From a virus, in the IMG/VR virus record IMGVR_UViG_3300025131_004374, positions 1 to 39,017 of that record: DNA of 39,017 nucleotides; one strand, given 5' to 3'. A model generated the notes under the pieces. That model was given only the letters and a program-made list of their open reading frames with translations, was not told where the DNA came from and made no database searches. Positions within the stretch are counted from its first letter, which is position 1; the number at the start of each line of letters is the position of its first letter. Position numbers and translations under genes: made by a program. Below, in pieces: positions 1-35,685 of the stretch.

Positions 1-11
1 CTCGGGTTACC
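1..11. repeat. Left copy of 11-bp terminal direct repeat (candidate cos)
   Basis: The first 11 bases, ctcgggttacc, are identical to the last 11 bases of the window. Lambda-type terminases (Nu1 and GpA homologues are encoded next to the other end) make short cohesive ends, typically 9-12 nt, and end filling during library preparation would give such a duplication. A leftover assembly overlap is the alternative, but 11 is shorter than usual assembly k-mers. Confidence 0.5.
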
Positions 12-62
12 TGCGCCGGGGCAGGTCCAGACAGGACCCGAGAGGGCAGGGAACTGCCTCTC
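1..62. other. Nested hairpins at the genome end
   Basis: Three inverted repeats are packed here. CTCGGGT at 1-7 pairs with ACCCGAG at 36-42. ACCTGC at 9-14 pairs with GCAGGT at 21-26, inside the first. A third stem, with one bulged G, joins 40-49 to 54-62. The last lies just after the stop of the final minus-strand gene, but no T-run follows on that strand, so a simple intrinsic terminator is unlikely. A terminase recognition structure is a possible role. Confidence 0.55.
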
Positions 63-72: not shown

Positions 73-711
73 TTATGGCTCAGCTCCCAACTCGCTGGCA
101 ACGGCCAGTTGGGCTGCAATTAGCCATCCGGCCCTGTCTGATGCGATCCGTTCGCGCTCTTTCGCTAGCCATCTCTCGGTTGTCTGCGGATCATAGCCCC
201 TGTTCCGTGCCTTCATTGCATACCTCATGGCGCGCCACTCTGGCTCGGTATGCCATCGTTCGACCGCCCGACTCCTGCGCTTCTCTGCTTGGCTCAGCGT
301 TTCCGGCTTGTTGTAGCGCGCAATACGCTTGAGTCTCTGCACGATTGGACACTTCAGCCATTCGGACTTCGCCTGATGATAAGCGCGCCTGGCAATCCAC
401 TCGGGGTCTGCCTCATTGCGCTTCCTGTTACGTGCTGCCGTGTCTGCATTCACCCTCTCCCGGTATCCAGGCTCATTGGCTATGCGCTCCTTGATGCGCT
501 TGGCATTGATAGCACGCTGGGACAGTCTGTACTCCTCGTCCGTTGCTATGCGCTCACGCTTGCGCTTGGCCCTCGACGCCGCGCGCATGGGGTTCTTGGA
601 CCTCTCTACATCGTACCGCTTGGCGTAAGCGGCAGAGCACGGGGGCCCGCACCTCTTGGCGGACCCCCGCGTCTGGAACTCCTTCCCGCATTCACTGCAT
701 GTCTTGAGCAT
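73..711 (-). CDS. Basic protein with N-terminal four-Cys zinc motif
   Basis: This 212-residue protein is unknown as a whole. It opens with a zinc-knuckle-like motif, Cys5-x2-Cys8 followed by Cys21-x3-Cys25 (CSECGKEF then CGPPC). The rest is very rich in Arg, Lys and Glu and is predicted to be helical. Its first 25 residues nearly duplicate those of the gene just upstream (692-1285), so the two are paralogues or share a swapped N-terminal module. The motif and charge suggest nucleic-acid binding; related four-Cys N-termini occur in phage HNH-type proteins, but I see no HNH catalytic triad. It is the last gene of the early operon and overlaps its neighbour by 20 bp. Confidence 0.7.
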   Translation of the reverse strand: MLKTCSECGKEFQTRGSAKRCGPPCSAAYAKRYDVERSKNPMRAASRAKRKRERIATDEEYRLSQRAINAKRIKERIANEPGYRERVNADTAARNRKRNEADPEWIARRAYHQAKSEWLKCPIVQRLKRIARYNKPETLSQAEKRRSRAVERWHTEPEWRAMRYAMKARNRGYDPQTTERWLAKERERIASDRAGWLIAAQLAVASELGAEP

Positions 712-1285
712 TGGCCAGCTCCTGTGATGCGATGATCATGGCGACCATGACCTGTGCTGTGGCGCGCTCCTCGCGCTTGGCTCTCCGGCGCTCCCTCTTG
801 CGCGCCTTGTACTCCGGTGTCTGTCGGCGCGCCGCGCGATTCTCCTTATACCTGGCAGTCTGACTATACGCCTTCATGTACACCCTGTGGTACTCCTTGG
901 ACTCCGGCGTCTGTCGGTACGCCTTCATGTACACTCTGTGGCGCTCCTTGGACTCCGGCGCCTGTCGGTACGCCTTCATGTACACTCTGTGGCGCTCCTT
1001 GTACTCCGGTGTCTGTCGGCGCACCCTGTGGTACTCCTTGGACTCCGGTGTCTGTCGGCGCACCCTGTGGTACTCCTTGTACTCCGGTGTCTGTTGGCGC
1101 GCCCTGTGGCGCTCCTTGGACTCCGGTGTCTGTTGGCGCGCCCTGTGGTACTCCTTGTACTCCGGTGTCTGTCGGCGCATCTTTTCATATGCCCGCGCTC
1201 TCGCCTTACGGCACGGGGGTCCGCACGTCAAAGCAGACCCCCGTGTCTGAAACTCCTTCCCACACTCTGCACACGTCTTCGTCAT
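692..1285 (-). CDS. Zinc-motif protein with tandem QTPEYKE repeats
   Basis: The 197-residue protein begins with the four-Cys motif shared with the next gene (CAECGKEF then CGPPC). Residues 36-166 form about nine tandem repeats of the type RRQTPEYKEYHRV. Several units are 13 residues long and three carry the insertion YMKAY, giving 17-residue units. Repeats alternate between PEYKE and PESKE. The tail is basic and helical. Start was set at the ATG that overlaps the upstream stop (ATGA). The repeats are highly charged and probably form an extended helical array; function is unknown. DNA or RNA binding is a guess from the zinc motif and basic charge. Confidence 0.75.
   Translation of the reverse strand: MTKTCAECGKEFQTRGSALTCGPPCRKARARAYEKMRRQTPEYKEYHRARQQTPESKERHRARQQTPEYKEYHRVRRQTPESKEYHRVRRQTPEYKERHRVYMKAYRQAPESKERHRVYMKAYRQTPESKEYHRVYMKAYSQTARYKENRAARRQTPEYKARKRERRRAKREERATAQVMVAMIIASQELANAQDMQ
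788..1180 (-). repeat. In-frame 39/51-bp minisatellite
   Basis: The DNA coding residues 36-166 of the repeat protein is a tandem array. Basic units are 39 bp; three carry a 12-bp in-frame extension to 51 bp. All units keep the reading frame, and neighbouring units differ by only a few bases, which points to recent expansion by slippage or unequal recombination. Confidence 0.85.
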
Positions 1286-1878
1286 CAGCTCAACTCCACC
1301 ATGAACCTGGCCAGATCCTTGGGCTTGAACACCACTTCCCGCCCGTTGCCCGTGACCCGTATCTCGCGCTTGTCTTTGTCCACAACCACATCCAACTTGC
1401 CAATCTTCGAGGGATTGCCCCCGTTGCGCCGCTTGCGCAGCATGAGTTGGTGATCCTGCCATTGCTTCTGCTGGGGCTGCGTCCGCACGCCGTCGTTGCC
1501 GAACACCATGCGTTGCTCTTCCCATGTGAGGATGCGCACTGCGGTCCGCCTCGGTGAGCCGTCTGCGGTGAGCACGTCCACGCCCTCGTCCATCAGTTGT
1601 TGCTGAACCTCCGGTGTCTCCCGCATCAGTGCGTTGCGGACATGCTCGGGCAGTACGAATACGGCGGCAAGCACACGGCCACTGGCGATTGCTGAGACGA
1701 TCTTCCACACCCCGTCACCAAGCGATGACTCCGTGCGGAGCGCCACCACATCGCCGCCGTTGTTGATGTACTGATTGTACAGCTTGCCCGCATTGTCGGC
1801 GCTCTTGCTGAACACGCCTTCGATCTTCCGCGCCCATACCTTCGGGTCCACTTTCGCGATTGCTGTTGTCGTCGCCAT
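1285..1878 (-). CDS. Unknown phage protein
   Basis: A 197-residue protein starting MATTTAIAKV, which I do not recognise. The start was chosen because GAGAGGAG lies just upstream of this ATG; an extension upstream lacks such a site. The sequence is mixed alpha/beta without Cys clusters, signal peptide or membrane segment. The C-terminal third looks like a small beta-rich domain (KLDVVVDKDKREIRVTG). Its stop overlaps the start of the repeat protein by 4 bp, so the two are probably translationally coupled. Confidence 0.75.
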   Translation of the reverse strand: MATTTAIAKVDPKVWARKIEGVFSKSADNAGKLYNQYINNGGDVVALRTESSLGDGVWKIVSAIASGRVLAAVFVLPEHVRNALMRETPEVQQQLMDEGVDVLTADGSPRRTAVRILTWEEQRMVFGNDGVRTQPQQKQWQDHQLMLRKRRNGGNPSKIGKLDVVVDKDKREIRVTGNGREVVFKPKDLARFMVELS

Positions 1879-2254: not shown

Positions 2255-2434
2255 TCATTGCTCCCATGTGCGCGGCTTGGGCTCGACGGTGATCGCCGTC
2301 TTCGTATCGGCCACGGTGCTGCAACACTGGACGACGTATGCCTCCTGCTCCTCGCTCAGTTTCGGTGGTGTGCCGTGCGTCGGCTCTTTGGGATGGCGGT
2401 CTCGGCGAAACCGAAACCTCAGTTCGTTGTTCAT
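2255..2434 (-). CDS. Small unknown protein, 59 residues
   Basis: This short gene (starts MNNELRFRFR, ends PRTWEQ) fills the space between the glycosyltransferase and the HTH gene. Its ATG overlaps the glycosyltransferase stop as ATGA, and its TGA lies 2 bp before the next ATG, whose ribosome site it contains. The first ten residues are basic; two adjacent Cys occur at VVQCCST. No family is recognised. The tight coupling on both sides is the main evidence that it is real. Confidence 0.6.
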   Translation of the reverse strand: MNNELRFRFRRDRHPKEPTHGTPPKLSEEQEAYVVQCCSTVADTKTAITVEPKPRTWEQ

Positions 2435-3534
2435 ATCTGCGTGTCCGTGATCCGTGGCGTGTCGTTGAGTACACTGGTGACGGTGCAGTTCAGTACGTTC
2501 AGGTTGATCTGTGCGTCACGGTAGTTGGGGAGAGTGTCGATGGCTTGGCGTAGTAGGTTCTCGGTCGCGGTGTCGTCGAACAGTGCGAGGTTGTTCCACC
2601 CGGCCGCGCTCTTTGGGCACCTGTTCACATGACGTAGCATGTGTTCTTTCGCCCACTCGAGCCCCAGATGCAGCCCCACCGTGCCCCTGTAGAAATCAGG
2701 ATCGAACCGCTCGGGGTCCGGCGTTGCGTCCATCATGCATAGGATGCCCCATGCCGTCTCCCAGTCACCCAGGAACATGGACCGGAGCACTAGCATCTGT
2801 TGCGTGTGCTCGTCTGGGATGCCCCGGTCGGTGTACCACACCATGACGGCCTCGGCCGGGTATTGGGACAAGATAAACGCGGTGTCCTTCCTGCATGCAT
2901 CATGGTCGGCGCTCAAGCCCCCGGGGCTGCGGCGCATGAACATGCCCACGCGGTCGAGTTGGACAAACTTGCACCCGGTCGCCACCAGTTGCAGCCATGC
3001 GTCATAGTCATCCGAGTTGGTGACCTCTTCGCGGTATCGGATCGTGTCGATGGCTCTGCGACTCAACAGCGGGTGTGGATTCATGGTGTTGCGCTCGAAT
3101 AGCCGGGTCCAGCTCGCGTCGGATTGCGTCCACTCGGGAACCTTGCGCACGTCGTCGTCGCAGCCCATGTACTCCAGATGGTCGATGGTCACGTCTGCGG
3201 CTGTGGCCTTGGCTCGGTCCACCAGATGCGCCACTCTCGATGGGAGCCATATGTCGTCAGCATCGTGCCAGATCAGATAGTCCCCGTTGGCCTTCCTGCG
3301 GATCTGCTCACGGCGCCGGGATACGCCGAGGCTCTTCGCTCCTTGGAGGATCTGAGCGCGCGTGGTGTCGCCCCAGCGGTCTATCACGTGCCCGGTCTTG
3401 TCCTTGCTCCCGTCATCGATGACGATCAACTCGGTGTTGCCGTAGGTCTGGCCTGCCATGGACCCCAGCGCGTCACTGATAGTATCGGCTGCGTCTCGTG
3501 CGGTCATCCCGATGGTTACTCGTGGTTTACTCAT
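2431..3534 (-). CDS. Family 2 glycosyltransferase
   Basis: This 367-residue protein has an N-terminal GT-A domain of the GT2 family (about residues 5-230): a VTIGMTARDA opening strand, the nucleotide-binding ELIVIDDGSKD at about 35-45, and the metal-binding DxD within HDADD at 90-94. The C-terminal 130 residues are helical and TPR-like (AAGWNNLALF). Such enzymes transfer sugars from nucleotide-sugar donors to glycans, lipids or proteins in the cytoplasm. No membrane segment is seen. It is the last enzyme of a coupled block with a NeuB-type synthase, so a sialic-like sugar or a related glycan is a possible substrate, but specificity cannot be read from the sequence. Confidence 0.88.
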   Translation of the reverse strand: MSKPRVTIGMTARDAADTISDALGSMAGQTYGNTELIVIDDGSKDKTGHVIDRWGDTTRAQILQGAKSLGVSRRREQIRRKANGDYLIWHDADDIWLPSRVAHLVDRAKATAADVTIDHLEYMGCDDDVRKVPEWTQSDASWTRLFERNTMNPHPLLSRRAIDTIRYREEVTNSDDYDAWLQLVATGCKFVQLDRVGMFMRRSPGGLSADHDACRKDTAFILSQYPAEAVMVWYTDRGIPDEHTQQMLVLRSMFLGDWETAWGILCMMDATPDPERFDPDFYRGTVGLHLGLEWAKEHMLRHVNRCPKSAAGWNNLALFDDTATENLLRQAIDTLPNYRDAQINLNVLNCTVTSVLNDTPRITDTQI

Positions 3535-3791
3535 GCTGTCTCCCTCTGGTCAATGATCTCGCCATGTATGTGCCGGTTGTTGCAAAGCGCTAACGAGAAC
3601 TCGTTGATCGGCACCCACTCCTCCCCCACCATGCCCATGGATTGCACGGGCTCGCCGAATAGGGCGCACCAGTCACCGCAGTGGCACAACATATCATATC
3701 CGCCGCGTGAACTGACCGGGCAAAACATGTCAGCCATCTTGCCATGGCGCTCCAGTGCAAGCAGTCCTTGCGTGTCAATCACCGCTTTCAT
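3531..3791 (-). CDS. Small Cys-rich unknown protein
   Basis: An 86-residue protein containing MFCPVSS, CHCGDWCALFGEP and a late Cys, a pattern seen in small uncharacterised phage proteins that may bind a metal. It overlaps both neighbours by 4 bp (NeuB-type gene upstream, glycosyltransferase downstream), so it is translated as part of the sugar block. Function unknown. Confidence 0.7.
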   Translation of the reverse strand: MKAVIDTQGLLALERHGKMADMFCPVSSRGGYDMLCHCGDWCALFGEPVQSMGMVGEEWVPINEFSLALCNNRHIHGEIIDQRETA

Positions 3792-4840
3792 GTGATGGCG
3801 GCCCTCGGTATTGCGGTGTCCTCGTGGATGACGTAGGTGGCTGTCTTGCCCACCACCATGGCCATGTCCAGCCCGGTGAAGTTTACGCCACGGGTGCCAA
3901 GCGGCTGCTTGCAGGTCAGCATGTCGCGGGTGATAGGAACGTTGGCCGGGATGTCACAGGCGGCCACGATTGCCACGTGGTAATTTTCGCGGGTACTGCG
4001 CTCGATGTGTTTTGCCCCGGGTCGTGTGGTTGCCCGGTCAATCCTGCGAATGGAGAGCACTAGATCCTCCAACTCGTCAAACTCGATGGAGATGCTGTGG
4101 TCCAGCCCCAGCATACTGCGGGCGTTGGTGACGTGCTTCTCGATGATGTCGGCGCCGGCGCCCACGGCTGCAATGGCAATGTCGATCCCCTCGCAGTGGT
4201 CACTGTAGCCTATGGCGTTGTGTGGGTAGGTCTCCTTGAGTTTGGCGATGCGGCCCAGTGCGGCGTGTTCGTCGGGGCACGGGTACGCGGCCACACAATG
4301 CATGATGGCAAGCCCCCCGGGGGCTTGCTGGAGGATGTCGATGGCTCGTGCTTCCTCGTCCCATGTACAGCCGCCGATGCTGGCGATGATGGGGAGACGG
4401 GTGGCGGCGCAGGCCTCCAGTAATGGACCGTTGGTGATGCTGTGGGAGGCGATCTTGATGACGTCGGGGCAGAGCTCTATGTAGCGCTCCAGTGCGGGGA
4501 TGTCGAACACGGAGGATGCAAACCCCATGTGGCAGGCGCTGGCGTGGTCTTGCAGTCTGATCAGTGCGTCGGGTTCAAGCTCCAACTTCTCGCGCACCTC
4601 CCGCTGGGTGCGGCCGAGCTCGCGGCACTTGGCAAATGGCCGGTCCAGGTAGTCGGCCGTGGCCAGTGCCGATGGTGTCCTCATTTGGACCTTGACCATG
4701 TGCGCGCCGGCCATGGCGGCCCGGTCGAGCATCTGGCGAGCGTAGTCGTAGCGGCCGTTGTGGCAGTTGCCGATCTCCGCCACGATCATGGTCGGCCACC
4801 CGGCTCCCACCGTCCTGTTGCCGATGTTTAGCTCTCGCAT
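3788..4840 (-). CDS. NeuB/PseI-family nonulosonic acid synthase
   Basis: This 350-residue protein fits the N-acetylneuraminate synthase family, which condenses phosphoenolpyruvate with a hexosamine-derived sugar to make nine-carbon (sialic, legionaminic or pseudaminic) acids. Residues 1-275 are the TIM barrel with AEIGNCHNG at 21-29, GYSDH at 211-215 and IEKHVT at 233-238. Residues 289-350 are the SAF (antifreeze-like) domain that caps the partner active site in the dimer. Length is normal for the family. The start MRELNIGN was chosen for the GAGGAGG site upstream. No CMP-sugar synthetase (NeuA/PseF) is visible, so activation would depend on the host. Which sugar is used cannot be told. Confidence 0.9.
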   Translation of the reverse strand: MRELNIGNRTVGAGWPTMIVAEIGNCHNGRYDYARQMLDRAAMAGAHMVKVQMRTPSALATADYLDRPFAKCRELGRTQREVREKLELEPDALIRLQDHASACHMGFASSVFDIPALERYIELCPDVIKIASHSITNGPLLEACAATRLPIIASIGGCTWDEEARAIDILQQAPGGLAIMHCVAAYPCPDEHAALGRIAKLKETYPHNAIGYSDHCEGIDIAIAAVGAGADIIEKHVTNARSMLGLDHSISIEFDELEDLVLSIRRIDRATTRPGAKHIERSTRENYHVAIVAACDIPANVPITRDMLTCKQPLGTRGVNFTGLDMAMVVGKTATYVIHEDTAIPRAAIT

Positions 4841-5268
4841 TGTGTCCTCCTCTGTTCCAGCCATGCCATGAACTCGCGCACGTTTGCTTTGGGGTCTCCC
4901 GGGATCGGGTATTTCTGGTCGTCAGGCTCGATTGGGTCGGTCCACACCGGATGCGGTAGCGGCTGTCCTCCGGTCGTTTCATACATGCCGTTCGCGAGGG
5001 TATGCGTGTGAATGTCTGGTTGTACATGCTCACCTGCTCGCCCCATGAGTGCCTCGCCATCGCCGCGGACGCAGGTGACACTGAGATGGGGCATGGCCGA
5101 TGCGATGCCCTTGGCCACGGATTGGGATTCTCCCATGGCATGCAGTAGATACAGGTTGCCGGGTCGGTGCGCCACTGCCTGAGCTGTGCGCGATGTCAGC
5201 CCGTTGGAGAAAACGAGAGCGCCCTCGTGGTCGGTCACGATCTTGCGGATAGCTTCACTTCGTTTCAT
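4828..5268 (-). CDS. TPP-dependent decarboxylase, beta (PP-domain) subunit
   Basis: This 146-residue protein resembles the ComE half of sulfopyruvate decarboxylase and the C-terminal half of phosphonopyruvate decarboxylase. It has the TDHEGALVFSNG opening, LLHAMGESQSVAKG, the Mg/TPP-binding GDG at 69-71 and NGMYETTGGQ at 93-102. The distance from GDG to Asn93 is about 21 residues, shorter than the usual 24-27 or so, so a loop or helix of the cofactor domain is trimmed. It overlaps the alpha-subunit gene by 14 bp and the NeuB-type gene by 13 bp. The substrate is presumably a 2-oxo acid such as sulfopyruvate or phosphonopyruvate, but this is inferred. Confidence 0.8.
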   Translation of the reverse strand: MKRSEAIRKIVTDHEGALVFSNGLTSRTAQAVAHRPGNLYLLHAMGESQSVAKGIASAMPHLSVTCVRGDGEALMGRAGEHVQPDIHTHTLANGMYETTGGQPLPHPVWTDPIEPDDQKYPIPGDPKANVREFMAWLEQRRTQCES

Positions 5269-5959
5269 CGATTTGCCCCCTTCCCACCAGTAGCGCGACT
5301 ACCTTTCTGCGCCCGTAGGCTGCGCGGACGAGCCCTGGTATGGTTTGCTTGACGGGCCTGAGCATACCGAACTGGTCCCAGTCGATCCCGAACGCCTTGC
5401 ACACAAGACGAGTGTTTTTGCCCCACCACTTGTGCTGCACTTCCTCCTCTGGGAAGACGCCCCGGTCTGCGACCACCAGGAACAGCCCGATCTCACACAG
5501 ATGATGCAGCCCCACGATGGCGTCACCGATCAGGCCGAATCCACTGTTCTGCATCAGGACGCACGGGCGTTTGCCGGCGAGCGTTGCCCCGAACGCCGCG
5601 GCTACTGCGTGGTTCTCGCGTGGTGCAGGGTAGTAGGGGGTCAGGTGCGGTAACACCTGCCGGAACATGGAATCAGGAACACCGCTGAACCAGTCACACT
5701 CGGCCATCAGCGCCGCGGCGAACTCCTCGCCGGTGAACAGTGCGCGCCGGGCTGTGTGCAGTGGCCTGAGTCCATCGGTCGGGTCGGCCCGCTGGTCACG
5801 CTCTGCCATCTCGCTGGGCCGTGGCGCCTTCTTGCCGTCCCCGTCGCAGGGTTGCCACTCGTGGACGTTGGGGCTCTCGCAGGCTGGACAACCGTGGCGA
5901 GGCGGACTCTCGGGTCGCTCTTCCCAGCTCAGCCCGCAGGTGTAGCATACCTTGTGCAT
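5255..5959 (-). CDS. TPP-dependent decarboxylase, alpha (Pyr-domain) subunit with zinc ribbon
   Basis: A 234-residue protein in two parts. Residues 1-35 form a zinc ribbon (Cys5-x2-Cys8, Cys24-x2-Cys27). Residues 75-234 match the Pyr domain of sulfopyruvate decarboxylase ComD and phosphonopyruvate decarboxylase: WFSGVPDSMF, then PRENHAVAAAFGA with the cofactor-activating Glu114, then CVLMQNSGFG. The start overlaps the radical SAM stop as TGATG. The zinc ribbon is not part of the known enzymes and may be a scaffold or partner-binding unit. With the next gene it would form the complete alpha/beta enzyme. Substrate unknown. Confidence 0.82.
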   Translation of the reverse strand: MHKVCYTCGLSWEERPESPPRHGCPACESPNVHEWQPCDGDGKKAPRPSEMAERDQRADPTDGLRPLHTARRALFTGEEFAAALMAECDWFSGVPDSMFRQVLPHLTPYYPAPRENHAVAAAFGATLAGKRPCVLMQNSGFGLIGDAIVGLHHLCEIGLFLVVADRGVFPEEEVQHKWWGKNTRLVCKAFGIDWDQFGMLRPVKQTIPGLVRAAYGRRKVVALLVGRGQIDETK

Positions 5960-7305
5960 CAAAACAGCCCTCCTCGATACCCCAGCGGCTCGGCCACGTC
6001 GGCATGTAGCCGCACGGTGTGTAGCCCCATGGATCGGCATGCGGACGCGATCTCGCTCTCGAAACAGTAGCTCCCCGGTATCACGGTGCCCACGTTGTTC
6101 TCGATCATCGTGTCTGGGGCCGTGACGGTGTGCCCGCCGATCACCCGGCCATGGGCCTCGGGCATAGCGTCCACAATGCCACCGATCTGGAGCTCCGGGC
6201 AATGCTCGGCCAGTGCGGCGTACAGTTTGCCGCCGTATACCCCGGCACCCCATATCCAGACAGGGGAGGCAATGGGTTCCTCGCATATGTGGTGTAGCAC
6301 ATGGAGAAGGGCCGCGGCGCCAGCCTCGAACGGGAACAGACTCACCACCGTCCGCCGTCCCGTGTCGTTGCGCACGTCGGGCAGTTCAGTCGGGCCTTTC
6401 CCCAAGTAGGACCAGAGCGTGCGATAGGAGCACGGCATACGTGGGTTGCGGTTGTATGCCACGCATCCGTTGACCGCGGGGCAGTGGCCAATGGCCGGGC
6501 GCGGGTTCCAGTCGCGTGTGTAGACGTTGCCGATTGATTTGTTGACTGACTCGCATTGGTTGACCGCGCCGGTGTCCAGGTCAATCACGAAGTCGTCGTG
6601 TCCTGCCGGGCACCAGGTCTTGAACGTGTTCATTCCGCCTGCGGTGCCAGACCACAGCCTCATCAGGTTGCCGGGCTCGGTGGTGTAGCTCTCGATCCAC
6701 TCGGCCTCTTCGTCCGTGTAGTCGCGGGGATACAGCTTGCGCCGCCATGGGCCCTCCATGACTGCGAGGGTGAACGGGATACCGACCGCCGAGCACTTCT
6801 TGCACATGTGCTCAACCGTCATCCTGCGATCCATACTGGAAACCACAACAACCTGAACCGGAAAGCCGTCCGCCGCTAGGTCATGCGTACGATACCGCCA
6901 GTCACGCGAATCGACGGTGCTCAAATGGTAGCTCGCCTTGACGAACCCGCACCGCTCGGGGGGCAAACTCATCCTAAACGACCCCACGTCCTGCGTCAGA
7001 TTGGTCATCAGCGAGACCATGTAGCCCCGCTCTGCAAACGCCTTGAGCAGATACTCGAACTGCGGATGCAGCATGGGCTCTCCGCCACTGAGGCACAGGC
7101 TCCAGTGCGGAGCAGTGCGGCGGAGGAACGCGAGGAAGGCGTCGGCGTCCTCCCGTGTGCGTCCGCGGGGATCGCGCTTCGGGGACCGGGGTCCGGTGCA
7201 GTACTCGCATCGCAGGTTGCACTCGCTCCACATCTCGACGCCGGCCGACATGCCGCCTGCCGGGTGTTCGTGGTTGAATCTCAGCGGTGTACCGTGGTTG
7301 GTCAC
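5959..7305 (-). CDS. Radical SAM enzyme with extra Cys cluster and Rossmann-like C-terminus
   Basis: A 448-residue protein starting at GTG, with GAGGAGA upstream. The radical SAM cluster is Cys29-x3-Cys33-x2-Cys36, followed by the GGE SAM-binding motif at 74-76. Mid-protein there is a Cys-rich SPASM-like region (CPAGHDDF, CES, CPAVNGC, MPCSYR) that could hold auxiliary iron-sulfur clusters. The C-terminal 110 residues look like a Rossmann unit (VWIWGAGVYGGKLY), of the sort attached to sugar C-methyltransferases and other glycan enzymes. It is the first gene of the coupled block. The family performs radical chemistry on peptides, sugars or nucleosides; the substrate is unknown. Confidence 0.85.
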   Translation of the reverse strand: MTNHGTPLRFNHEHPAGGMSAGVEMWSECNLRCEYCTGPRSPKRDPRGRTREDADAFLAFLRRTAPHWSLCLSGGEPMLHPQFEYLLKAFAERGYMVSLMTNLTQDVGSFRMSLPPERCGFVKASYHLSTVDSRDWRYRTHDLAADGFPVQVVVVSSMDRRMTVEHMCKKCSAVGIPFTLAVMEGPWRRKLYPRDYTDEEAEWIESYTTEPGNLMRLWSGTAGGMNTFKTWCPAGHDDFVIDLDTGAVNQCESVNKSIGNVYTRDWNPRPAIGHCPAVNGCVAYNRNPRMPCSYRTLWSYLGKGPTELPDVRNDTGRRTVVSLFPFEAGAAALLHVLHHICEEPIASPVWIWGAGVYGGKLYAALAEHCPELQIGGIVDAMPEAHGRVIGGHTVTAPDTMIENNVGTVIPGSYCFESEIASACRSMGLHTVRLHADVAEPLGYRGGLF

Positions 7306-15343: not shown

Positions 15344-15354
15344 CCGAATACGAG

Positions 15355-15407
15355 GGCGCCAACCGGCGCCTCTTGTACTGACCCGCGGCAATCAAGCCGG
15401 GGGTCAG
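15355..15407 (+). other. Two intergenic RNA hairpins
   Basis: GGCGCC at 15355-15360 pairs with GGCGCC at 15365-15370 across an AACC loop. Next, 15378-15384 (CTGACCC) pairs with 15401-15407 (GGGTCAG), with inner CGGC/GCCG pairing, making an 11-bp stem with one mismatch. No T-run follows, so these are not standard terminators. The second stem sits directly upstream of the next ribosome site. Confidence 0.65.
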
Positions 15408-15422
15408 CACAGGAGAGAGACG

Positions 15423-15940: not shown

Positions 15941-16276
15941 ATGGGACAACGAGGCCGAAAAAGGTACGAGTCCAACATCGATGCGGAACTCTTCCGCCTG
16001 GCGCTCGGACTACTCCGGACAACCTACGCCGAAATGGCGAAGGCGTCCGGCTACAAGCTGGAGTCAGTTAAGCAAATGGCGAACGGAACCAACCCGGTAA
16101 GCCTGCGAATGGAGACCGCGCTCGCGAACATGGTCATCGGGCTGTGGAATGAGTCGGACCGGGTCCATCCGTTCCACAACCACCTGATCACCATTCGCGT
16201 AGATGGTCTCGACGTCACGGTAGTTGGCGGGAAGATCATGGGGTGCCGGACGGCGGTGTTGGGAGGTGGGGAATGA
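15941..16276 (+). CDS. HTH-like small protein
   Basis: A 111-residue protein. Residues 22-60 (TTYAEMAKASGYKLESVKQM) resemble an XRE/lambda-repressor-like helix-turn-helix, followed by a beta-rich end (LITIRVDGLDVTVVGGKI). It overlaps the helicase-methyltransferase gene as ATGA. It may regulate the operon or guide its DNA enzymes. Confidence 0.6.
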   Translation: MGQRGRKRYESNIDAELFRLALGLLRTTYAEMAKASGYKLESVKQMANGTNPVSLRMETALANMVIGLWNESDRVHPFHNHLITIRVDGLDVTVVGGKIMGCRTAVLGGGE

Positions 16277-18531
16277 CTTACGAGGAGTTCATCGCAGGCA
16301 AGGCGCGGACGGTCGCCCCGTGCGGGTTGACCGACGTGCCGAAACTCAACCCAATGCTTTTCGACTGGCAACGGGACATCGTGGCGTGGGCGCTCAAGCG
16401 CGGGCGCGCGGCCATCTTCGCGGATTGCGGGCTGGGCAAGACGCCCATGCAGTTGGAATGGGCTCGCCATGTGCCGGGCGATGTGCTCATACTCGCCCCT
16501 CTGGCCGTCGCCGACCAGACCTGCCTGGAGGCCGAGAAGTTTGGCGTGCCCGATGTCAACTATCGCCGGTCGATGGCGGATGTCACGCCGGGCATCACGA
16601 TCACCAACTATGAGATGCTAGAGCACTTTGACGCCTCGGCCTTCGCGGGCGTTGTGCTGGATGAGTCGTCTATCCTCAAGGCATACGATGGCAAGACGCG
16701 AACGCGCATACTGGAGGCATTCGCGGATACTCCGTTCCGTCTGGCATGCACGGCCACGCCAGCCCCCAACGACTACATGGAGCTCGGCAACCATGCCGAG
16801 TTCATGAGCGCGATGTCACGGGCCGAAATGCTGTCTTGTTTTTTCGTCCACGACGGAGGCGAGACGCAGAAGTGGCGGCTCAAAGGCCACGCCGGGGACG
16901 AGTTCTGGAAATGGGTATGCTCGTGGGCGGTGATGATACGGATGCCTTCGGACCTCGGGTATGCAGACGATGGCTTCGTGCTGCCGGCGCTCACAGTAGA
17001 GGACCATGTGGTCGATGTCGATCACGATCCGGCCACCACCGGAACGCTATTCGCGATGGAAGCCAAGACGCTGACGGATCGACTCGGTGCCAGGCGTAGC
17101 ACCATCGCAGAGCGGGTAGCATCGGTCGCCGCAATGGTCAACGCTACGCCGGGTCCGTGGGTCGTATGGTGCGCGCTCAATGACGAGAGCTCGTCTGTGG
17201 CGTCTGCCATCGACGGTGCCGTCGAGGTTCGCGGCTCACAATCGCTCGAAGTCAAAGAGGCAAACCTGCGAGCATTCTCGGATGGCTCGCTTCGCGTACT
17301 GGTCACCAAACCAAGCATAGCCGGGTTCGGCCTTAACTGGCAGCACTGCCACAACGTGGCGTTCCTCGGTCTCGGTGACAGCTACGAGCAGTATTACCAG
17401 GCTATCCGCAGGTGCTGGCGATTCGGACAGACGCAGCCGGTGACATGCCATATAGTGACAGCGAAAACGGAGGCGAGGATCGTGGCGAACATCAAACGCA
17501 AGGAAGCGGACGCTACGCGCATGGCCGAGGACATGGCCAAGCACATGTCCGTGCACAGCGCCGACATCGTCCGCGGGATGGCAAAGCCGGATAGCGCGAG
17601 CGTTTCCAGTAGCACCAAGGGCGACGGATGGGAAGCGATCCACGGGGACTGCGTGCGCGCGGTCTCGGCGATGGACTCCGACAGCATTGGGTACACGATC
17701 TTCTCGCCCCCGTTCGCCTCGCTCTACACCTACACCAATCTCCCCGAGGACATGGGGAACTGCAACAATTATACCGACTTCTCGGAGCACTTCGCCTACC
17801 TGATTCCAGAGTTGTTCCGCGTGACCATGCCGGGTCGGTTACTGTCGTTTCACTGCATGAACACTCCGACGCTCAAAAGCCGCGATGGCTTCGTGGGCCA
17901 GCGCGATTTCCGAGGCGAACTCATTCGCATGTTCGAGGCCTCCGGCTGGATCTTCCACAGCGAAGTATGCATCTGGAAAGATCCGGTCACGGCCATGCAA
18001 CGAACGAAGGCGCTCGGGTTGCTGCACAAGCAGGTTGTCAAGGACAGCGCCATGTCGCGGCAAGGGATCGCCGACTATCTGGTCACCATGCGCAAGCCGG
18101 GAGACAACCCGGTCCCCGTGTCGGGCGAACTGTCCACGTTCGTCGGTGACCCGGCTACGTTCAAGCCGACCGGGCGCCTGAGTATTGACATCTGGCAACG
18201 GTACGCCAGCCCAGTGTGGATGGACATACGCCCATCCAGGACACTGCAATACCGTTCCGCGCGGGACCACAAGGACGACCGGCACATCTGCCCGCTCCAG
18301 TTGGACGTAATAGAGCGAGCCATGCAACTATGGTCCATGCCCGGGGATCTGGTGCTGTCGCCTTTCATGGGAATTGCATCCGAGGGCCATGTCGCGGTGA
18401 CGACCGGGCGCCGGTTCGTGGGAACCGAACTGAAAGACTCATACTACCGGCAGGCGGTGAAGAACCTACGCATAGCCGAACGCGAGGCGGGCGAGGGCAT
18501 GTTGTTCACAGCCGAGGAGATGGCACAATGA
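16273..18531 (+). CDS. SNF2/DEAD-like helicase fused to DNA methyltransferase
   Basis: A 752-residue two-enzyme fusion. Residues 25-400 are a superfamily-2 helicase: GLGKT Walker A at 53-57, DESS motif II at 130-133, CTATPAPND motif III and QAIRRCWRFGQ motif VI at about 376-386. Residues 450-750 are an N6-adenine/N4-cytosine methyltransferase of the beta class, with catalytic SPPF at 478-481 first and the SAM-binding FMGIASEG at about 698 last. Such fusions occur in phages; the helicase part may let the enzyme move along or open DNA. ATG chosen on GGGAGGTGGGG and ATGA overlap. Likely role: protective DNA methylation. Confidence 0.88.
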   Translation: MTYEEFIAGKARTVAPCGLTDVPKLNPMLFDWQRDIVAWALKRGRAAIFADCGLGKTPMQLEWARHVPGDVLILAPLAVADQTCLEAEKFGVPDVNYRRSMADVTPGITITNYEMLEHFDASAFAGVVLDESSILKAYDGKTRTRILEAFADTPFRLACTATPAPNDYMELGNHAEFMSAMSRAEMLSCFFVHDGGETQKWRLKGHAGDEFWKWVCSWAVMIRMPSDLGYADDGFVLPALTVEDHVVDVDHDPATTGTLFAMEAKTLTDRLGARRSTIAERVASVAAMVNATPGPWVVWCALNDESSSVASAIDGAVEVRGSQSLEVKEANLRAFSDGSLRVLVTKPSIAGFGLNWQHCHNVAFLGLGDSYEQYYQAIRRCWRFGQTQPVTCHIVTAKTEARIVANIKRKEADATRMAEDMAKHMSVHSADIVRGMAKPDSASVSSSTKGDGWEAIHGDCVRAVSAMDSDSIGYTIFSPPFASLYTYTNLPEDMGNCNNYTDFSEHFAYLIPELFRVTMPGRLLSFHCMNTPTLKSRDGFVGQRDFRGELIRMFEASGWIFHSEVCIWKDPVTAMQRTKALGLLHKQVVKDSAMSRQGIADYLVTMRKPGDNPVPVSGELSTFVGDPATFKPTGRLSIDIWQRYASPVWMDIRPSRTLQYRSARDHKDDRHICPLQLDVIERAMQLWSMPGDLVLSPFMGIASEGHVAVTTGRRFVGTELKDSYYRQAVKNLRIAEREAGEGMLFTAEEMAQ

Positions 18532-18831: not shown

Positions 18832-19812
18832 TCAATGGGTCTCGACCATTTGCCTGAGCTCATCGTCGCTCAGCCAGCGGTCATTAGTGTCGCTGTTGAA
18901 ACTGAATCCGTCCGGTAGACCGTCCGCGTCCTTCCAGTTGACGTCACCCCAGCGATGATACTCGGGCAAGATCACGAACATGTCGTCGAGAGCCTTTGTG
19001 TGCCGGGCTTCATCGACGGACACCAGGCACTCGTGGAGCTTCTCGCCAGGGCGTATTCCAGTGCACTCGATGTCACATCCAGGTGCGATGGTCTTGGCCA
19101 GCTCCATGATCCCGAGACTCGGAATCCGGGGCACGAAGACCTCGCCACCCACCATGCGCTCGAGCGATAGGGAGACGAACTCAATGGCCTGATCCAACGT
19201 CAGCCAGAAACGAGTCATCCGTGGGTCGGTGACCGTCACCTTCCCCTGCTCGCGTTGCTGGCGGAAAAGCGGGATGATGCTGCCACGGCTGCCGAGGACA
19301 TTGCCGTACCGGACGCAGCAGAATCGAGTGGCCCGGCCACCGGCGTATGAATTGCCCTGAATGAACAACTTCTCGGCGCAGAGCTTTGTCGCGCCGTATA
19401 GGTTGGTCGGAGACACGGCTTTGTCGGTGCTGAGGCCGATTACCTTCGGAACATTGCAGTCAATGGCGGCATTGATGACGTTGTGGGCTCCGAGGATGTT
19501 TGTCTTCACCGCTTCGAACGGGTTGTATTCGCACGCGGGCACCTGCTTGAGGGCGGCGGCGTGGATCACAACGTCCAGGCCCGCCTGGAAAGCACGGTGC
19601 AGGCGGCGCTCATCTCTGACGTTGCCGATGAAGAATTCCAGGCGCCTCTCACCTCGGAATTCACTGCGGATGTCATGCTGCTTGAATTCGTCCCGGCTGA
19701 AAACGATGATGCGTTCCGGCTGGCCATCGTCGAGCACACGCCTGACCAGACGACGCCCGAAGGAGCCGGTTCCCCCCGTGACGAGAATCCGCTTGTCTTT
19801 GAATGCTCTCAT
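18832..19812 (-). CDS. pseB: UDP-GlcNAc 4,6-dehydratase (inverting), PseB/FlaA1-like
   Basis: A 326-residue short-chain dehydrogenase/reductase. It has the NAD(P) motif TGGTGSFG at 12-19, the catalytic Asp130-Lys131 in STDKA and Tyr139-x3-Lys143 in NLYGATK, matching the known Asp/Lys/Tyr/Lys set of Helicobacter FlaA1 offset by two. That enzyme converts UDP-GlcNAc to a 4-keto-6-deoxy-5-epimer, the first step to pseudaminic acid. PseC, H, G and F are not seen, so the product must be used by host enzymes or stand alone. It overlaps the membrane protein upstream as ATGA and is the last gene of the late operon. Confidence 0.9.
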   Translation of the reverse strand: MRAFKDKRILVTGGTGSFGRRLVRRVLDDGQPERIIVFSRDEFKQHDIRSEFRGERRLEFFIGNVRDERRLHRAFQAGLDVVIHAAALKQVPACEYNPFEAVKTNILGAHNVINAAIDCNVPKVIGLSTDKAVSPTNLYGATKLCAEKLFIQGNSYAGGRATRFCCVRYGNVLGSRGSIIPLFRQQREQGKVTVTDPRMTRFWLTLDQAIEFVSLSLERMVGGEVFVPRIPSLGIMELAKTIAPGCDIECTGIRPGEKLHECLVSVDEARHTKALDDMFVILPEYHRWGDVNWKDADGLPDGFSFNSDTNDRWLSDDELRQMVETH

Positions 19813-20117
19813 CCGATGGCGTGGTAGAGAAAGAGGCATGCGGTTGCCAGCGCGATCAGAACACCAACGATGGCAATGGTAGTTTTGGTCGTCTGGCGAC
19901 TGTCGGCTAGGCGAGTCTCGATAGAGCCAACTCGGCCAATGATGCCAGGTTGGCCGTTGCCGTTCAGCGCCTTGTGGTTGTCATCAGTCAGCCGCTCAAC
20001 GATGCCGACCGTAGTGAGGATCTTCGCGGTGGTATCACCGAGCTTGTCAATCTTCTCGCCATTCGCGCGAGCGGTCGCGACAAATGTCTCTATGTCTGCT
20101 CTGTCTTCTACAGTCAT
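19809..20117 (-). CDS. Tail-anchored membrane protein (holin-like candidate)
   Basis: A 102-residue protein with a charged helical N-terminal 75 residues and one membrane helix at the C-terminus (TTIAIVGVLIALATACLFLYHA). The layout resembles XhlA-type hemolysin/holin accessory proteins of phages. It lies at the end of the tail genes, where lysis genes often sit. Start MTVEDRADI has GGGGGTGG upstream. No endolysin is found beside it, so the lysis role is tentative. Confidence 0.55.
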   Translation of the reverse strand: MTVEDRADIETFVATARANGEKIDKLGDTTAKILTTVGIVERLTDDNHKALNGNGQPGIIGRVGSIETRLADSRQTTKTTIAIVGVLIALATACLFLYHAIG

Positions 20118-27925: not shown

Positions 27926-28273
27926 TTATGGCACTGTGTTGGTGATCCAGGTTTGTACGCTGATCGTCGCGCGCTTGTACTCGGTGTTGGATTCATTGCG
28001 GGCCACGCTCAACACCAGAGAGTTGACCGCCGTGGCGGATATGCTGATGGCGAGCTCGGTGCCTGCAACTGGAAGCGCGGTCTCGGTGTCTAGGACCACC
28101 TCCTGGCTTGCCTCGACGGAGAGATTGTACGCTGCGACTGCCGCCACATCGCCATTTGCGTCACGTGCCTCTGCGACCTCGACTGACTCGTTTTCGGTGA
28201 GCGATTGGGTGAGCCCGTAGGTGGTGGCCGCGGCGCCGATGTAGCTTGACACACCATGTTGATACGTTGCCAT
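27926..28273 (-). CDS. Tail tube-like protein, copy 2
   Basis: A 115-residue beta-rich protein (MATYQHGVSSYIGAAATTYG ... TENESVEVAEARDA). About two thirds of positions equal those of the adjacent gene at 28283-28630, so it is a tandem duplicate. The place between the tail terminator and the chaperone is that of the major tail protein (lambda gpV). The shared TENESVEVAEARDA segment resembles the hub strand region of small tail tube proteins. Confidence 0.72.
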   Translation of the reverse strand: MATYQHGVSSYIGAAATTYGLTQSLTENESVEVAEARDANGDVAAVAAYNLSVEASQEVVLDTETALPVAGTELAISISATAVNSLVLSVARNESNTEYKRATISVQTWITNTVP

Positions 28274-28282: not shown

Positions 28283-28630
28283 CTATGCCGGGATCGTGTT
28301 GGTGATCCATGCCTGACTCGATATGGTCAGACGTTTGTACTCGGTATTGCTCTCGTTCCTGGAGACACTGGTGACCAGCGTACTGCCGGTGTTGGACGCG
28401 GAGACCGAGAGCGTTGCCCCCGCTGCCGGCGGCGTTGCGGTGATGTCGAGGACCACCTCCTGGGAGAACTCGGCATTCAGATTGTAACTGGTCACCGCGG
28501 CCACGTCCCCGTCTGCATCCCGTGCCTCGGCAACTTCGACAGACTCGTTCTCGGTAAACGACTGCATCAGGCCATAGGTGGTGGCCGCAGCGCCAATGAA
28601 GCTTGTGATTCCGTGCTGATATGTGGCCAT
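28283..28630 (-). CDS. Tail tube-like protein, copy 1
   Basis: A 115-residue paralogue of the gene at 27926-28273, with near-identical ends (MATYQHGITSFIGAAATTYG and NESNTEYKRLTISSQAWITN). Differences cluster in the middle, around residues 60-90, where surface loops would be expected. Only one copy is normally needed to build a tube, so one may be a minor tube or a tail decoration protein. Confidence 0.72.
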   Translation of the reverse strand: MATYQHGITSFIGAAATTYGLMQSFTENESVEVAEARDADGDVAAVTSYNLNAEFSQEVVLDITATPPAAGATLSVSASNTGSTLVTSVSRNESNTEYKRLTISSQAWITNTIPA

Positions 28631-30273: not shown

Positions 30274-32106
30274 TCAGGTGCCGGTGACGTTGGTGGCGTA
30301 GCAGAACGCCTGCCCGTAGCGCCAGAGGTAGTCGATGTCCTGGAAGATGGTCAGGCGGATGCGGCCGGTGGCAGACGAGCTATAGGGGTCTACGAGCACG
30401 TCGATGCCGCCCCAGCTCGCCTGAATGCCCTGGGACCAATCCCCGAATATGATGGTGTTCGCGGCAGACTGGTTAGTGGACACGGCACGGAATCCGGCGA
30501 TCTGACCATCGGCCCACACGAACTGAGCGGTGGACGTGGATTTGTCCTTGGCCATCAGCGTCGCGCGAACGGCCGGGGTCGTCACGTACACGGACGAGTC
30601 CGTGAGCGTATTGTCCTCGGCGTTCTCCTTCATAAAGCTCAGCATGTTCGCCCATGTCGGAGTCGCGGAGATCGTGGTTGTGTTGATGCTCGAAGCCGAG
30701 AGGATGCCCAAAGGCTGACCGGCGGTTCCGGCGCCCTGAAGTCCAGCCACGTCGATAGCGACGGCTGCGACCTTGGCCATGTCCTCACGCATCAGGCTTT
30801 CGATGTCGGGGCTCGCCTGCACGGTCATTCGACGGGATACCTCGGTGAGCACGCCATTGGTATGAGGCGTGAGCTTCCGAGAGCCGAACGTGGGCTGGCT
30901 CTCTGTGATCGAGTCGTCTTCGCCGAGCCAGTAGGAGGTACTGCCGGTGAGTTGGACGGGGATGTCCACATCGCCGACGAGGCCGGTCATGGACCGGAGT
31001 CCGAGTTGCGGCAGGATGAGTTGGTTTCGGAGCAACTCGATGAACGATCCGGCCATGTAGTCGGTCGCGATCAGGTTGCCGCCTGACGTACTGGCAAGGA
31101 CGTCACGCTGTGCAAAGCGCGGGTCTGGGGCGGCGAGGACATCGTATGGAATCCGCATTCCCTGCTGCGCCCCGCTCGGGCTCTTGCGCGTGGCCTCGGT
31201 GCTGATTTCGCGATACCAGTCGTTCTGGTAACTGTCTTGGGGGTCCTGGGTGCGGATGAGCTCGATGAAGGAGAATCGCTTAACCTCCTCTTCACTCATC
31301 CCGATACGTGGGTCCTCGGTCTGCGGAGCCGGTTGCTCCTTGGCGCGCTTCTTGAGGATGTCCAAGACGCTGGCCTGGAAGTCGCGCAATCCCGTCCCCT
31401 CAGACGCTGCGGTGATGGCCTCGTCGGAGAGATTGTGCGCCTTGCCGATGGCGAGGATTTCACGGACACGGTTGCGGTCTTCTGCCTGGATGGACGCCTC
31501 GTCAATGGCGGGCGCCTCCGACGGAGTTTGAACGGTCAGTTCCTCGGGCATTTCGGGTGCCTCCTTGATTGTTTCCGGCTGGTCCAGACTGCGACCGACT
31601 CCCACGCTCATATCGGCGGGTATGCTGACGAACGAGATCTCGTGCGGGGTCCACCGCGCACGAAATGTGTCAGGCTCATCTCCCTCGCCTTCCTCGACGC
31701 GCTCAAGTTGGTCGATCTGATAGCCGACTGATATGTGTCTGCGGATACGGTCTTCCACGTCCTGGCGTGTGTCCTGCCCGAGCGCCGACTTGGAAAAGCG
31801 TACCACCGCTCTTCCTCTCCTGTCGGAGTCGATGCTCGCAGAGTCCACTACTCCAGCGTGGTCGGCCGTGTCGTGGTTGATCAAAACAGCCGCGCCGTCG
31901 TCCATGCGGCCCATGTCTACAGACTCGGCATCGTGGTCGAGCACCTCGAAGCCGAACCACCGCAAGACGGGCGCCTCTGACGAGAAGGCGACCTTGACAG
32001 TACCGCCTTCGGCGTCGATGTCTTCGGCGCGGATGGTGTCCTGCATCTCGCGATGCTGTAGGCCGTCACTCGCCAGGCGGGATAGGATTTCCTGTATTTC
32101 CGGCAT
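30274..32106 (-). CDS. Prohead protease fused to HK97-fold major capsid protein
   Basis: A 610-residue fusion. Residues 1-180 are a prohead serine protease of the U35/S78 kind (VLINHDTADHAG with the catalytic His, RRHISVGYQI, HEISFVSIPADMSVG with the Ser). Residues 195-290 are a charged helical delta/scaffold segment (RVREILAIGKAHNL). Residues 300-610 are the HK97 capsid fold (STSGGNLIATDYMAGSFIEL, LTPHTNGVLTEVSRRM, RIRLTIFQDIDYLWR). In assembly the protease releases and removes the front part. The gene overlaps the portal gene by 41 bp. A single gene combining these functions is known in other phages. Confidence 0.9.
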   Translation of the reverse strand: MPEIQEILSRLASDGLQHREMQDTIRAEDIDAEGGTVKVAFSSEAPVLRWFGFEVLDHDAESVDMGRMDDGAAVLINHDTADHAGVVDSASIDSDRRGRAVVRFSKSALGQDTRQDVEDRIRRHISVGYQIDQLERVEEGEGDEPDTFRARWTPHEISFVSIPADMSVGVGRSLDQPETIKEAPEMPEELTVQTPSEAPAIDEASIQAEDRNRVREILAIGKAHNLSDEAITAASEGTGLRDFQASVLDILKKRAKEQPAPQTEDPRIGMSEEEVKRFSFIELIRTQDPQDSYQNDWYREISTEATRKSPSGAQQGMRIPYDVLAAPDPRFAQRDVLASTSGGNLIATDYMAGSFIELLRNQLILPQLGLRSMTGLVGDVDIPVQLTGSTSYWLGEDDSITESQPTFGSRKLTPHTNGVLTEVSRRMTVQASPDIESLMREDMAKVAAVAIDVAGLQGAGTAGQPLGILSASSINTTTISATPTWANMLSFMKENAEDNTLTDSSVYVTTPAVRATLMAKDKSTSTAQFVWADGQIAGFRAVSTNQSAANTIIFGDWSQGIQASWGGIDVLVDPYSSSATGRIRLTIFQDIDYLWRYGQAFCYATNVTGT

Positions 32107-33538
32107 TGTTTACCCCTTTATCAGTAACCACTTTTGTCAACCCGAACTCGGCTGCGAGCGTCTCGTCGGACTGGATGCGCTCGTAGATTTCGCGTAGTTC
32201 CATGCCCGACTGCTCGGCTACTATGGTGGTGTCATCCATCCACAGATTGCCGCGGGCGATCTCGTTCGCCTGAAGATCCTTGAGCGGGTCCACCCATGCC
32301 CAGCGGCGGGGCTGCCAGGTGTCCGCGTGAAACTTCTCCATCTTCGACAGCGGCAGGTTGCTCATGCCCGATGTCAGGAACATCTCCAGCCACACCGCGA
32401 AGATGCGCCGGTTCCAGTGCCGGATCATCCATTCCTGGTTCGCGATCCACTCGTCACGCTCGGCTAACTTGCCCTCTCGTAGGCTGGAGAAGTTGACTCC
32501 TTCCAGGTCGTTGGCCAGTCCGTTGTAGGTGACGCCCAGCCCCGAACTGATCCCCCGCAGAGCGCCTTTCACGAAGTCGGCAAACGCGGTGGTCGGATGA
32601 GTCGGGTCCCACTGAGTAATGTCCCAGCCGGTGGGCAGTTTCTCGAACGTGCCGGGGGAAACGTCTGTGACCGGCATATTAACGTCCGAATTATCCGCCT
32701 GGAGCTCTTCGCCGGGCATGTATTTGTAAAAACCCATCTTGCTGGCACCGAGGCGAGCGGCCACGGTCTCGGCTTCGATGTAGCCTTCGAGCATATTGAG
32801 CCGGGGCATGGATGCCGCAGCCCAGGAGATGCCGCGCACGGCGCCGGGTCGCTCGGTTTTCTTCAGGAGGATCATGTCCTCCCGGCCCACCCGCTGGCGT
32901 TTGTTTGCGCGGCGCTTGCTCGTCCAGTTCCCTGGATGACTGCCGTCCAGCCAGTACGCCTGCGGCACACCGAGGCTGTCCATCTCGACAGCCATGTACA
33001 CTGAGCGCCCGCCTTTAAGCTCCTCGCAATACTGGTCATCTAGGTAGTCACCTTCGAGCAGACGCATCGTGAATCCATACGGGTTCTCGGCACCTTTCAT
33101 CAGTAGGGAGATGCATTCGCCATCGCGGGCTGTGGAACGTAGCGCGAGCTTGCTGGCCTCGGTGAACGTCATTCCGCCGACTGTGGCGTAGTGACAAGAC
33201 CAGTCGTGCCACGCCTCTTCGATGATGCGGTTAGCCCCGGTGTCGGGCGTGCCGTTGGGGTCTTTGATACGCATCTGAAGCTTGATGCCGCGCCCGATGA
33301 CGTTGTTTTCGAGCATGCCGAGATATTTGCGAAAATAGTCGTTGTTCTGCTCCAGCGTCCGCGCGCGTTCGCGGATAGGCCGCAGCCCGCCCTTGAGTTC
33401 GGCGTTGGCATCGCTCGCACTAAACGCCCAGTCCTCGGTGAGGCGGGTTTTCTTGGCAGCATTCCAGGCGCGGGCATATGATTGCCGCCTTGCAGCCCTG
33501 CGCCCTGCCAGCCGTTTCAGCCGATCAAGAAACGTCAT
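32066..33538 (-). CDS. Portal protein, lambda family
   Basis: A 490-residue protein of the lambda gpB portal family: ARTLEQNNDYFRKYLGMLENNVIG near residue 60, GMTFTEASKLALRSTARDGE at about 125, RPGAVRGISWAAASMPRLNML, and YNGLANDLEGVNFSSLREGK. Twelve copies form the ring through which DNA is packaged and to which the tail joins. Normal length. It overlaps the gpW-like gene by 14 bp and the capsid gene by 41 bp. Confidence 0.92.
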   Translation of the reverse strand: MTFLDRLKRLAGRRAARRQSYARAWNAAKKTRLTEDWAFSASDANAELKGGLRPIRERARTLEQNNDYFRKYLGMLENNVIGRGIKLQMRIKDPNGTPDTGANRIIEEAWHDWSCHYATVGGMTFTEASKLALRSTARDGECISLLMKGAENPYGFTMRLLEGDYLDDQYCEELKGGRSVYMAVEMDSLGVPQAYWLDGSHPGNWTSKRRANKRQRVGREDMILLKKTERPGAVRGISWAAASMPRLNMLEGYIEAETVAARLGASKMGFYKYMPGEELQADNSDVNMPVTDVSPGTFEKLPTGWDITQWDPTHPTTAFADFVKGALRGISSGLGVTYNGLANDLEGVNFSSLREGKLAERDEWIANQEWMIRHWNRRIFAVWLEMFLTSGMSNLPLSKMEKFHADTWQPRRWAWVDPLKDLQANEIARGNLWMDDTTIVAEQSGMELREIYERIQSDETLAAEFGLTKVVTDKGVNNAGNTGNPIPPGE

Positions 33539-34079
33539 CTGAGGTAAACCTCACATATATCTTGTTGGTCGGTTGCTCGCCACGGCGCACCCGGCGTTTG
33601 TCCTCGTTGCGCAGAACGTCGAACTTGAGACGCTTCATCAGCTCGTATCGGGTCTGGAGTAGATCGGGGTCACGGGCCAGCGCGGCGTCAGACTTCATAA
33701 TCTGGACGATGTTGTTGTACATCGCCTCGACGTCTGCCTCGACGTTGACCGAATGGTAGTTGGTGTCGGTGCTCGCCGGATCGCGGACGACACTGAGCGA
33801 ATCTTTCCCCACGATGGCGCGGAAACTCTCGCCCGTTACAGACGCAGTCCACTCGTAATCGCCGGGGAGAAGGTTCGCGGTGTCGGTCGCTGCAATGTTG
33901 ACCTCGAACGCCGATCCGGTGACAGTCGCCTGCACCGTCATCGACGAGGGTCCGCGCAGCGTGTAGGTGAGCGTCCAGTCGGACGTCGGGTAGGAGTCGT
34001 AGGTTTTTTGCCAGCGCACCGAATCGCCCTGGAAGAACTCCATAGGCTCGTTGGTTGCCGCGTCAAACGTCACAGCCAT
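33525..34079 (-). CDS. gpW-like head-tail joining protein with beta domain
   Basis: A 184-residue protein in two parts. Residues 1-110 form a beta sandwich (DWTLTYTLRGPSSMTVQA ... PGDYEWTASVTG). Residues 125-184 are helical and basic (DADVEAMYNN-like helix, RYELMKRLKFDVLRNEDKRR, then NKIYVRF), similar to what lies between terminase and portal in lambda, the place of gpW. The N-terminal domain is an addition compared with the 68-residue gpW. Start MAVTFDAA follows CAGGAGG. Confidence 0.62.
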   Translation of the reverse strand: MAVTFDAATNEPMEFFQGDSVRWQKTYDSYPTSDWTLTYTLRGPSSMTVQATVTGSAFEVNIAATDTANLLPGDYEWTASVTGESFRAIVGKDSLSVVRDPASTDTNYHSVNVEADVEAMYNNIVQIMKSDAALARDPDLLQTRYELMKRLKFDVLRNEDKRRVRRGEQPTNKIYVRFTSDDVS

Positions 34080-34136
34080 GGGCTGGCCTCCTGTAGATCG
34101 TGTGTCTACCAAAGGCCGAAAACGTCAACCTAGGGC

Positions 34137-34167
34137 AAAAAAAGAGCCCCGGTGACAAGCCGGGGCC
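34137..34167 (-). terminator. Rho-independent terminator
   Basis: On the minus strand a perfect 7-bp stem GCCCCGG/CCGGGGC with a 7-base loop is followed by TC and seven T. It stands after the 75-residue gene and before the gpW-like gene, so it separates the terminase operon from the head-tail operon. Confidence 0.88.
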
Positions 34168-34242
34168 AAGGGAGGAGGCGGACAGGATGCGCGAACCGTC
34201 CGCGCCATTACCATAGCAGAACGGGCTGTGGATTGCAATAGG

Positions 34243-34470: not shown

Positions 34471-34473
34471 CTC

Positions 34474-35673: not shown

Positions 35674-35685
35674 GGTGTCCTCATG

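Follow-up and report, generated by a model that had tools for sequence, protein, structure and literature searches.

An 11-nucleotide terminal repeat as a probable cos site in the genome of an uncultured phage with a GpA/Nu1-type terminase

When a viral contig begins and ends with the same 11 bases, the repeat may be an accident of where the assembly stopped, or it may mark the place where a terminase cut the genome for packaging. This question is raised by record IMGVR_UViG_3300025131_004374, an entire IMG/VR record of 39,017 bases (hereafter the window), in which an earlier sequence-only reading had noticed an 11-mer common to both ends and proposed it as a cos site and target of the terminase. 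The 11-mer is present as described (CTCGGGTTACC at 1-11 and 39007-39017), and its interpretation as cos is supported by coinciding assembly ends, the terminase type, the overhang length of relatives and a cosQ-like word. The window is thus very probably the complete packaged linear genome of a tailed phage whose terminase is of the GpA/Nu1 type, with its ends representing the terminase cut site. An 11-nt cos in a GpA/Nu1 phage is a known arrangement, which is here well supported in an uncultured virus.

Exact overlaps between the two ends of the 39,017-base window exist at lengths of 1 and 11 only, and none longer than 11 was found among them. The 11-mer CTCGGGTTACC occurs in the window as two exact copies, both at the ends, and as two copies with one mismatch. 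Based on base composition, an exact end overlap of at least 11 bases is expected by chance with P = 5.7e-7, and in 136 other IMG/VR contigs compared over their whole length no more than 3 end bases matched once adapters had been trimmed. A two-fold symmetric cosN as in lambda was rejected, as the 11-mer of the window has rotational symmetry at 0 of 11 positions (2 of 21 when flanks are included). The two copies, read as cohesive ends, are as follows.

1-11, plus strand: 11-nt cohesive end opposite the terminase side, 5'-CTCGGGTTACC, putative 5' overhang equivalent to the lambda 'right' end; exact terminal repeat, found in no record other than that of the window
39007-39017, minus strand: 11-nt cohesive end on the terminase side, 5'-GGTAACCCGAG, putative 5' overhang equivalent to the lambda 'left' end; exact terminal repeat, and the place where two further records (L003 and L002) end

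The anatomy of the terminase side consists of the two terminase genes, a further gene, and several short words close to the end, all on the minus strand.

35686-37563, minus strand: terminase large subunit (TerL), GpA ATPase and nuclease (PF05876, 6.6e-80; PF20454, 5.2e-79)
37478-37957, minus strand: terminase small subunit (TerS), Nu1-like N-terminal domain (PF07471, 3.9e-10 on residues 1-54; phrog_57, 6.1e-31)
37963-38925, minus strand: gene of 320 aa separating cos from terS, without a family match
38963-38968, minus strand: TTACCA, second candidate TerS-binding repeat (cosB-like), weak
38985-38990, minus strand: TTACCA, first candidate TerS-binding repeat (cosB-like), weak
38991-38994, minus strand: CCAG, bases 24-27 from the end, a one-base variant of the CTAG seen in many GpA-phage ends

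The cos site had been placed immediately upstream of a Nu1/GpA-type terminase operon. This position is only approximate, since 92 non-coding bases and the 320-aa gene intervene before TerS and TerL. The two TTACCA words are spaced 22 nt, a motif that was picked after the fact, and the bases following the nick are CCCA in the window versus the CGCG common in relatives. An ATP-grasp ligase with a LAL_C2 domain is encoded inside the packaging operon (34474-35673, minus strand).

At the opposite end, the first 62 bases are strongly structured and contain the word GGGTCCT, which we take to be the cosQ of lambda.

1-42, no strand assigned: inverted repeat 1-7/36-42 of 7 bp, joining part of the cohesive end to part of the cosQ-like element
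Within 1-42, no strand assigned: nested hairpin 9-14/21-26 of 6 bp
33-39, minus strand: cosQ-like GGGTCCT, 21 nt from the nick, the sole minus-strand copy
40-62, no strand assigned: inverted repeat 40-45/57-62 of 6 bp, a hairpin just beyond the point where the last minus-strand gene stops
73-711, minus strand: 212-aa gene nearest to the left end, with a CxxC-type motif and no family match

On the plus strand of the window, GGGTCCT occurs twice, at 31241 and 31310. As the word lies inside the left flank, what was first noticed as a structured flank carries a probable cosQ, an element described in the N15 paper as a highly conserved 7 bp required for termination (PMC4669245). All three inverted repeats claimed for this flank are present, although two of them, not one, begin inside the 11-mer. 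Across the genome, 16 of 7,791 windows of 62 nt equal the flank in carrying three stems of 6 bp or more. Its DNA fold energy of -17.0 is reached by 25 of 7,792 genome windows and, among 2,432 windows matched for GC, by 22, and none of 200 shuffles folded as well as the flank (z -3.4). The structure is therefore unusual (top 0.2-0.3% of the window) but not unique. The best 62-nt DNA fold of the window, at -24.9, lies in a GC-rich hairpin region at about 15346-15410.

The structured flank could alternatively be a transcription terminator or RNA element that ends the last minus-strand gene independently of packaging. The flank begins 11 bases past the stop codon at 73 and its minus-strand RNA folds with a z of -1.8, as may be expected under such a reading, yet it has no U-run, no terminator-like site was found in 1-1000, and the flank contains the cosQ-like GGGTCCT, making this explanation less likely than not. 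The two roles are compatible and could coexist. A predicted terminator in 38000-39017 was discarded, as it falls within an opposite-strand gene. The idea that such structure accompanies cos in general did not hold: flank z values are -0.26 and 0.56 in lambda and -1.9 and -1.6 in RcDormio. The lambda flank is thus unstructured and that of RcDormio only mildly structured, so flank structure is not a general feature of cos, and a need to pair the cohesive end with the cosQ-like element is not evident in these phages. The inverted repeats are real as sequence, and any role of theirs in packaging is conjectural.

Whether the right end is a physical terminus can be judged from independent assemblies. 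Searching the right flank across IMG/VR retrieved two records from other samples, L003 (3300025112_000117) and L002 (3300025141_001187), both of which end at base 39017, with neither reading through it. The first bases of L003 are GGTAACCCGAG, starting at the same base as the minus strand of the window, and L002 carries 15 extra bases, gtgctcttccgatct, directly abutting base 39017, which presumably represent the inner end of an Illumina adapter. This string followed by GG is found in at least 120 contigs, and among the matches listed it lies no more than 50 nt from a contig end in 98 of 120. As adapter-tipped contigs are common, an adapter tip on its own proves little; however, a tip at a base where other assemblies also stop carries more weight than an adapter tip alone. 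The coinciding ends of L002 and L003, with L002 running straight into adapter, point to base 39017 as a physical, end-repaired terminus. SNPs distinguish L003 from the window (99.85-99.96% identity in two compared pieces), and the contig diverges left of window position 10973; it thus represents another strain and an assembly separate from that of the window. The far ends of the relatives do not coincide, L002 ending at 20924 and a third relative, L066, spanning 30527 to 36171. Judged by its length, L003 might have had its other end near the one-mismatch 11-mer at 9157, but as the contig already diverges left of 10973, this was dismissed as coincidence. L070 (G002), a strain more than 99.8% identical in the right part, is unrelated left of window position 10973 except for short islands of similarity, a pattern of modular exchange.

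Only the window's own record contains the left end. The left-end flank had no matches in other contigs, the 18-mer formed by fusing both ends was absent from all other contigs searched, and the 212-aa last gene had no relative among 43 candidate stretches. A fragment that carries the same 11 bases at its start and end by accident, or through an assembly artefact, is highly improbable: IMG/VR contigs do often break off arbitrarily, in some cases with an adapter tip, but this account is opposed by the chance expectation for the repeat (5.7e-7), by the two further records ending at the same base, 39017, and by the cosQ-like word and the position on the terminase side.

The polarity of the overhangs may be deduced from library chemistry. 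According to the PhageTerm paper, 5' overhangs are filled in during end repair and 3' overhangs are lost, cos ends are expected at contig limits in assemblies, and the terminal sequence is shared over the cohesive length in 5' cos phages and not shared in the case of 3' overhangs (PMC5557969). Since filled-in 5' overhangs are expected to give a shared terminal word, the 11-mer reads as an 11-nt 5' cos, and the repeat length together with end-repair chemistry suggests 11-nt overhangs of 5' polarity that would be single-stranded in the virion. An 11-base 5' overhang is reported for the RcC phages of Rhodobacter capsulatus, including RcDormio (PMC8601537), and a 5' cos of 11 bp also occurs in Providencia phages (PMC10472563). 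A double-stranded 11-bp direct terminal repeat formed by synthesis, T7-like, would presumably look identical in an assembly but is hardly credible here, given that the smallest such repeat known to the PhageTerm paper is 131 bp (T3) and the longest cohesive end 19 nt (PMC5557969), and that GpA relatives are published as 5' overhang phages (PMC8601537) or annotated with a sticky end.

Under the cos reading, the terminase would cut concatemeric DNA by nicks spaced 11 bp, one in either strand, and the resulting 5' overhangs of 11 nt, 5'-GGTAACCCGAG and 5'-CTCGGGTTACC, would be complementary. End repair during library preparation would then fill in the overhangs, so that the 11-mer would appear in the assembly once at either contig end. 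On the minus strand, the joined site would consist of the hairpin flank with GGGTCCT (33-39), 21 nt, the 11-nt cosN, 12 nt, CCAG, the two TTACCA words, the 320-aa gene, terS and terL. TerS may bind the segment ahead of the 320-aa gene, cosQ may halt packaging at the second cos, and the ends would probably anneal after infection to circularise the genome.

The nearest known counterparts of the site are found in the RcC-cluster phages of Rhodobacter capsulatus, in lambda (cosQ-cosN-cosB) and in two uncultured contigs. Like the window, RcDormio (MW677510) encodes a GpA TerL, has a genome of ~41 kb with genes between cos and terS, and carries a cosQ-like word (GGTTCTT), 20 nt before the end; it differs by its cohesive sequence, by the presence of CTAG at 24 and by longer cosB-like direct repeats. 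No DNA similarity of either end region of the window to isolate phages, RcDormio included, was found in the phage collection. Lambda shares the GpA/Nu1 terminase, the 5' cohesive ends and GGGTCCT (23 nt from the end versus 21 here), whereas its cohesive end is 12 nt rather than 11, with identity limited to the first two G, and its terS starts at 191 rather than about 1,060 nt from the end. In addition, the cosN of lambda is rotationally symmetric and its flank unstructured, while the window lacks the symmetry and has a structured flank. Lambda-like in the strict sense, as outlined in the N15 paper, denotes 12-base 5' ends with identity to those of lambda and a two-fold symmetric cosN (PMC4669245); membership in this strict group was rejected on the length (11 nt), sequence (GGTAACCCGAG) and symmetry of the window's end. 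Finally, two IMG/VR contigs, G008 (3300018933_000008) and G010 (3300025679_000010), likewise combine a GpA TerL, an exact 11-nt terminal repeat and GGGTCCT (24 and 22 nt from the end, respectively), but their cohesive sequences are unrelated and they have CTAG at 24 where the window has CCAG.

As a by-product of the analysis, a cos signature common to part of the GpA phages emerged. It seems reasonably probable that GpA-terminase phages of many hosts share GGGTCCTT(C/T)C, followed after ~20-24 nt by an 11-12-nt cohesive end usually starting with GG(T), then CGCG, and CTAG 23-26 bases from the end. Among 15 long GpA-phage contigs compared at both ends, an exact 11-nt terminal repeat was found in two (G008 and G010), the other 13 having at most 2 matching bases; in one of these, G014, the far end is incomplete and the terminase-side end lies at the same base as in G010, and the two may be re-assemblies of one sample. 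Terminase-side contig ends fell 491-665 nt upstream of the TerL start, a range chosen after looking, in 10 of 52 other terminase relatives for which that end was available. A GGT start was seen at 12 of 52 terminase-side ends versus 1 of 45 opposite ends, and CTAG at 23-26 at 10 of 52 versus 0 of 45, where the count of 10 includes L042 and L043, which are one virus, leaving 9 distinct.

The pattern GG[GT]TCCT-N40-58-CTAG matched 12 times in 804,354 bases on both strands, every match being in sense orientation and preceding the TerL match by 656-1,464 nt; no match was found in the 255,452 bases that follow TerL in 41 loci. The strict pattern is missing from 29 of 41 loci, and 10 of the 12 matches come from one closely similar group (three named members are from Acetobacter), so that few independent lineages are represented. 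A TerL prophage scan of genome contigs added 7 distant relatives, used for the cos pattern only. When relaxed to C[CT]AG, the pattern occurs twice in the closed window, once exactly at the join. The window, having GGT and GGGTCCT without CGCG or CTAG (CCAG instead), thus represents a variant of the signature. No description of a conserved CTAG or GGGTCCTT associated with the terminase was found in the open-access literature searched. Neither GGT nor CTAG at 23-26 was present in 13 of 19 isolate record starts (lambda, phi80, 21, Mano, KA2-1, BR233a, HY01, KLER1-1, RcRhea, VP882, SFCi1, mEp460 and S-LBS1), several of which need not start at cos. In RcRhea (L232, NC_028954), positions 62-80 are presumably a Nextera adapter, the sequence that follows starts with GGT with CGCG soon after, and base 81 may be the actual cos end. 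The first 50 bases of contig L013 likewise resemble what we take to be a Nextera adapter.

The analysis indicates that this uncultured phage genome is complete as packaged, with its packaging mode read from assemblies alone. Eleven bases may escape end-repeat checks on contigs, and such genomes, with a repeat perhaps too short to notice, can pass as 'linear fragments'. The comparison also suggests that where contigs in public viral collections end on the terminase side, they often do so at the genuine packaging site, and that lambda has a short cos signature in common with phages infecting Acetobacter, Rhodobacter and uncultured hosts. If the signature is true, both cos and genome completeness could be read from sequence, and virome contigs that stop at it would be true genome ends rather than fragments.

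The remainder of the genome displays several further features. Sugar and surface genes, all on the minus strand, encode a glycosyltransferase 2, a NeuB-type synthase, a radical SAM protein and a Polysacc_synt_2 epimerase, and together with the ATP-grasp gene they occupy 2431-3534, 3788-4864, 5959-7305, 18832-19839 and 34474-35673. The open reading frame at 16243-18531 (plus strand) combines a helicase C-terminal domain with an N6/N4 DNA methylase and is probably a helicase-methyltransferase fusion, and the one at 692-1708 (minus strand) encodes a CxxC-type motif and, after it, a charged RRQTPEYKEYHR-like unit repeated in tandem. A 187-bp direct repeat, with 73.8% identity between its copies (28087-28273 and 28444-28630), lies in the region of the structural genes.
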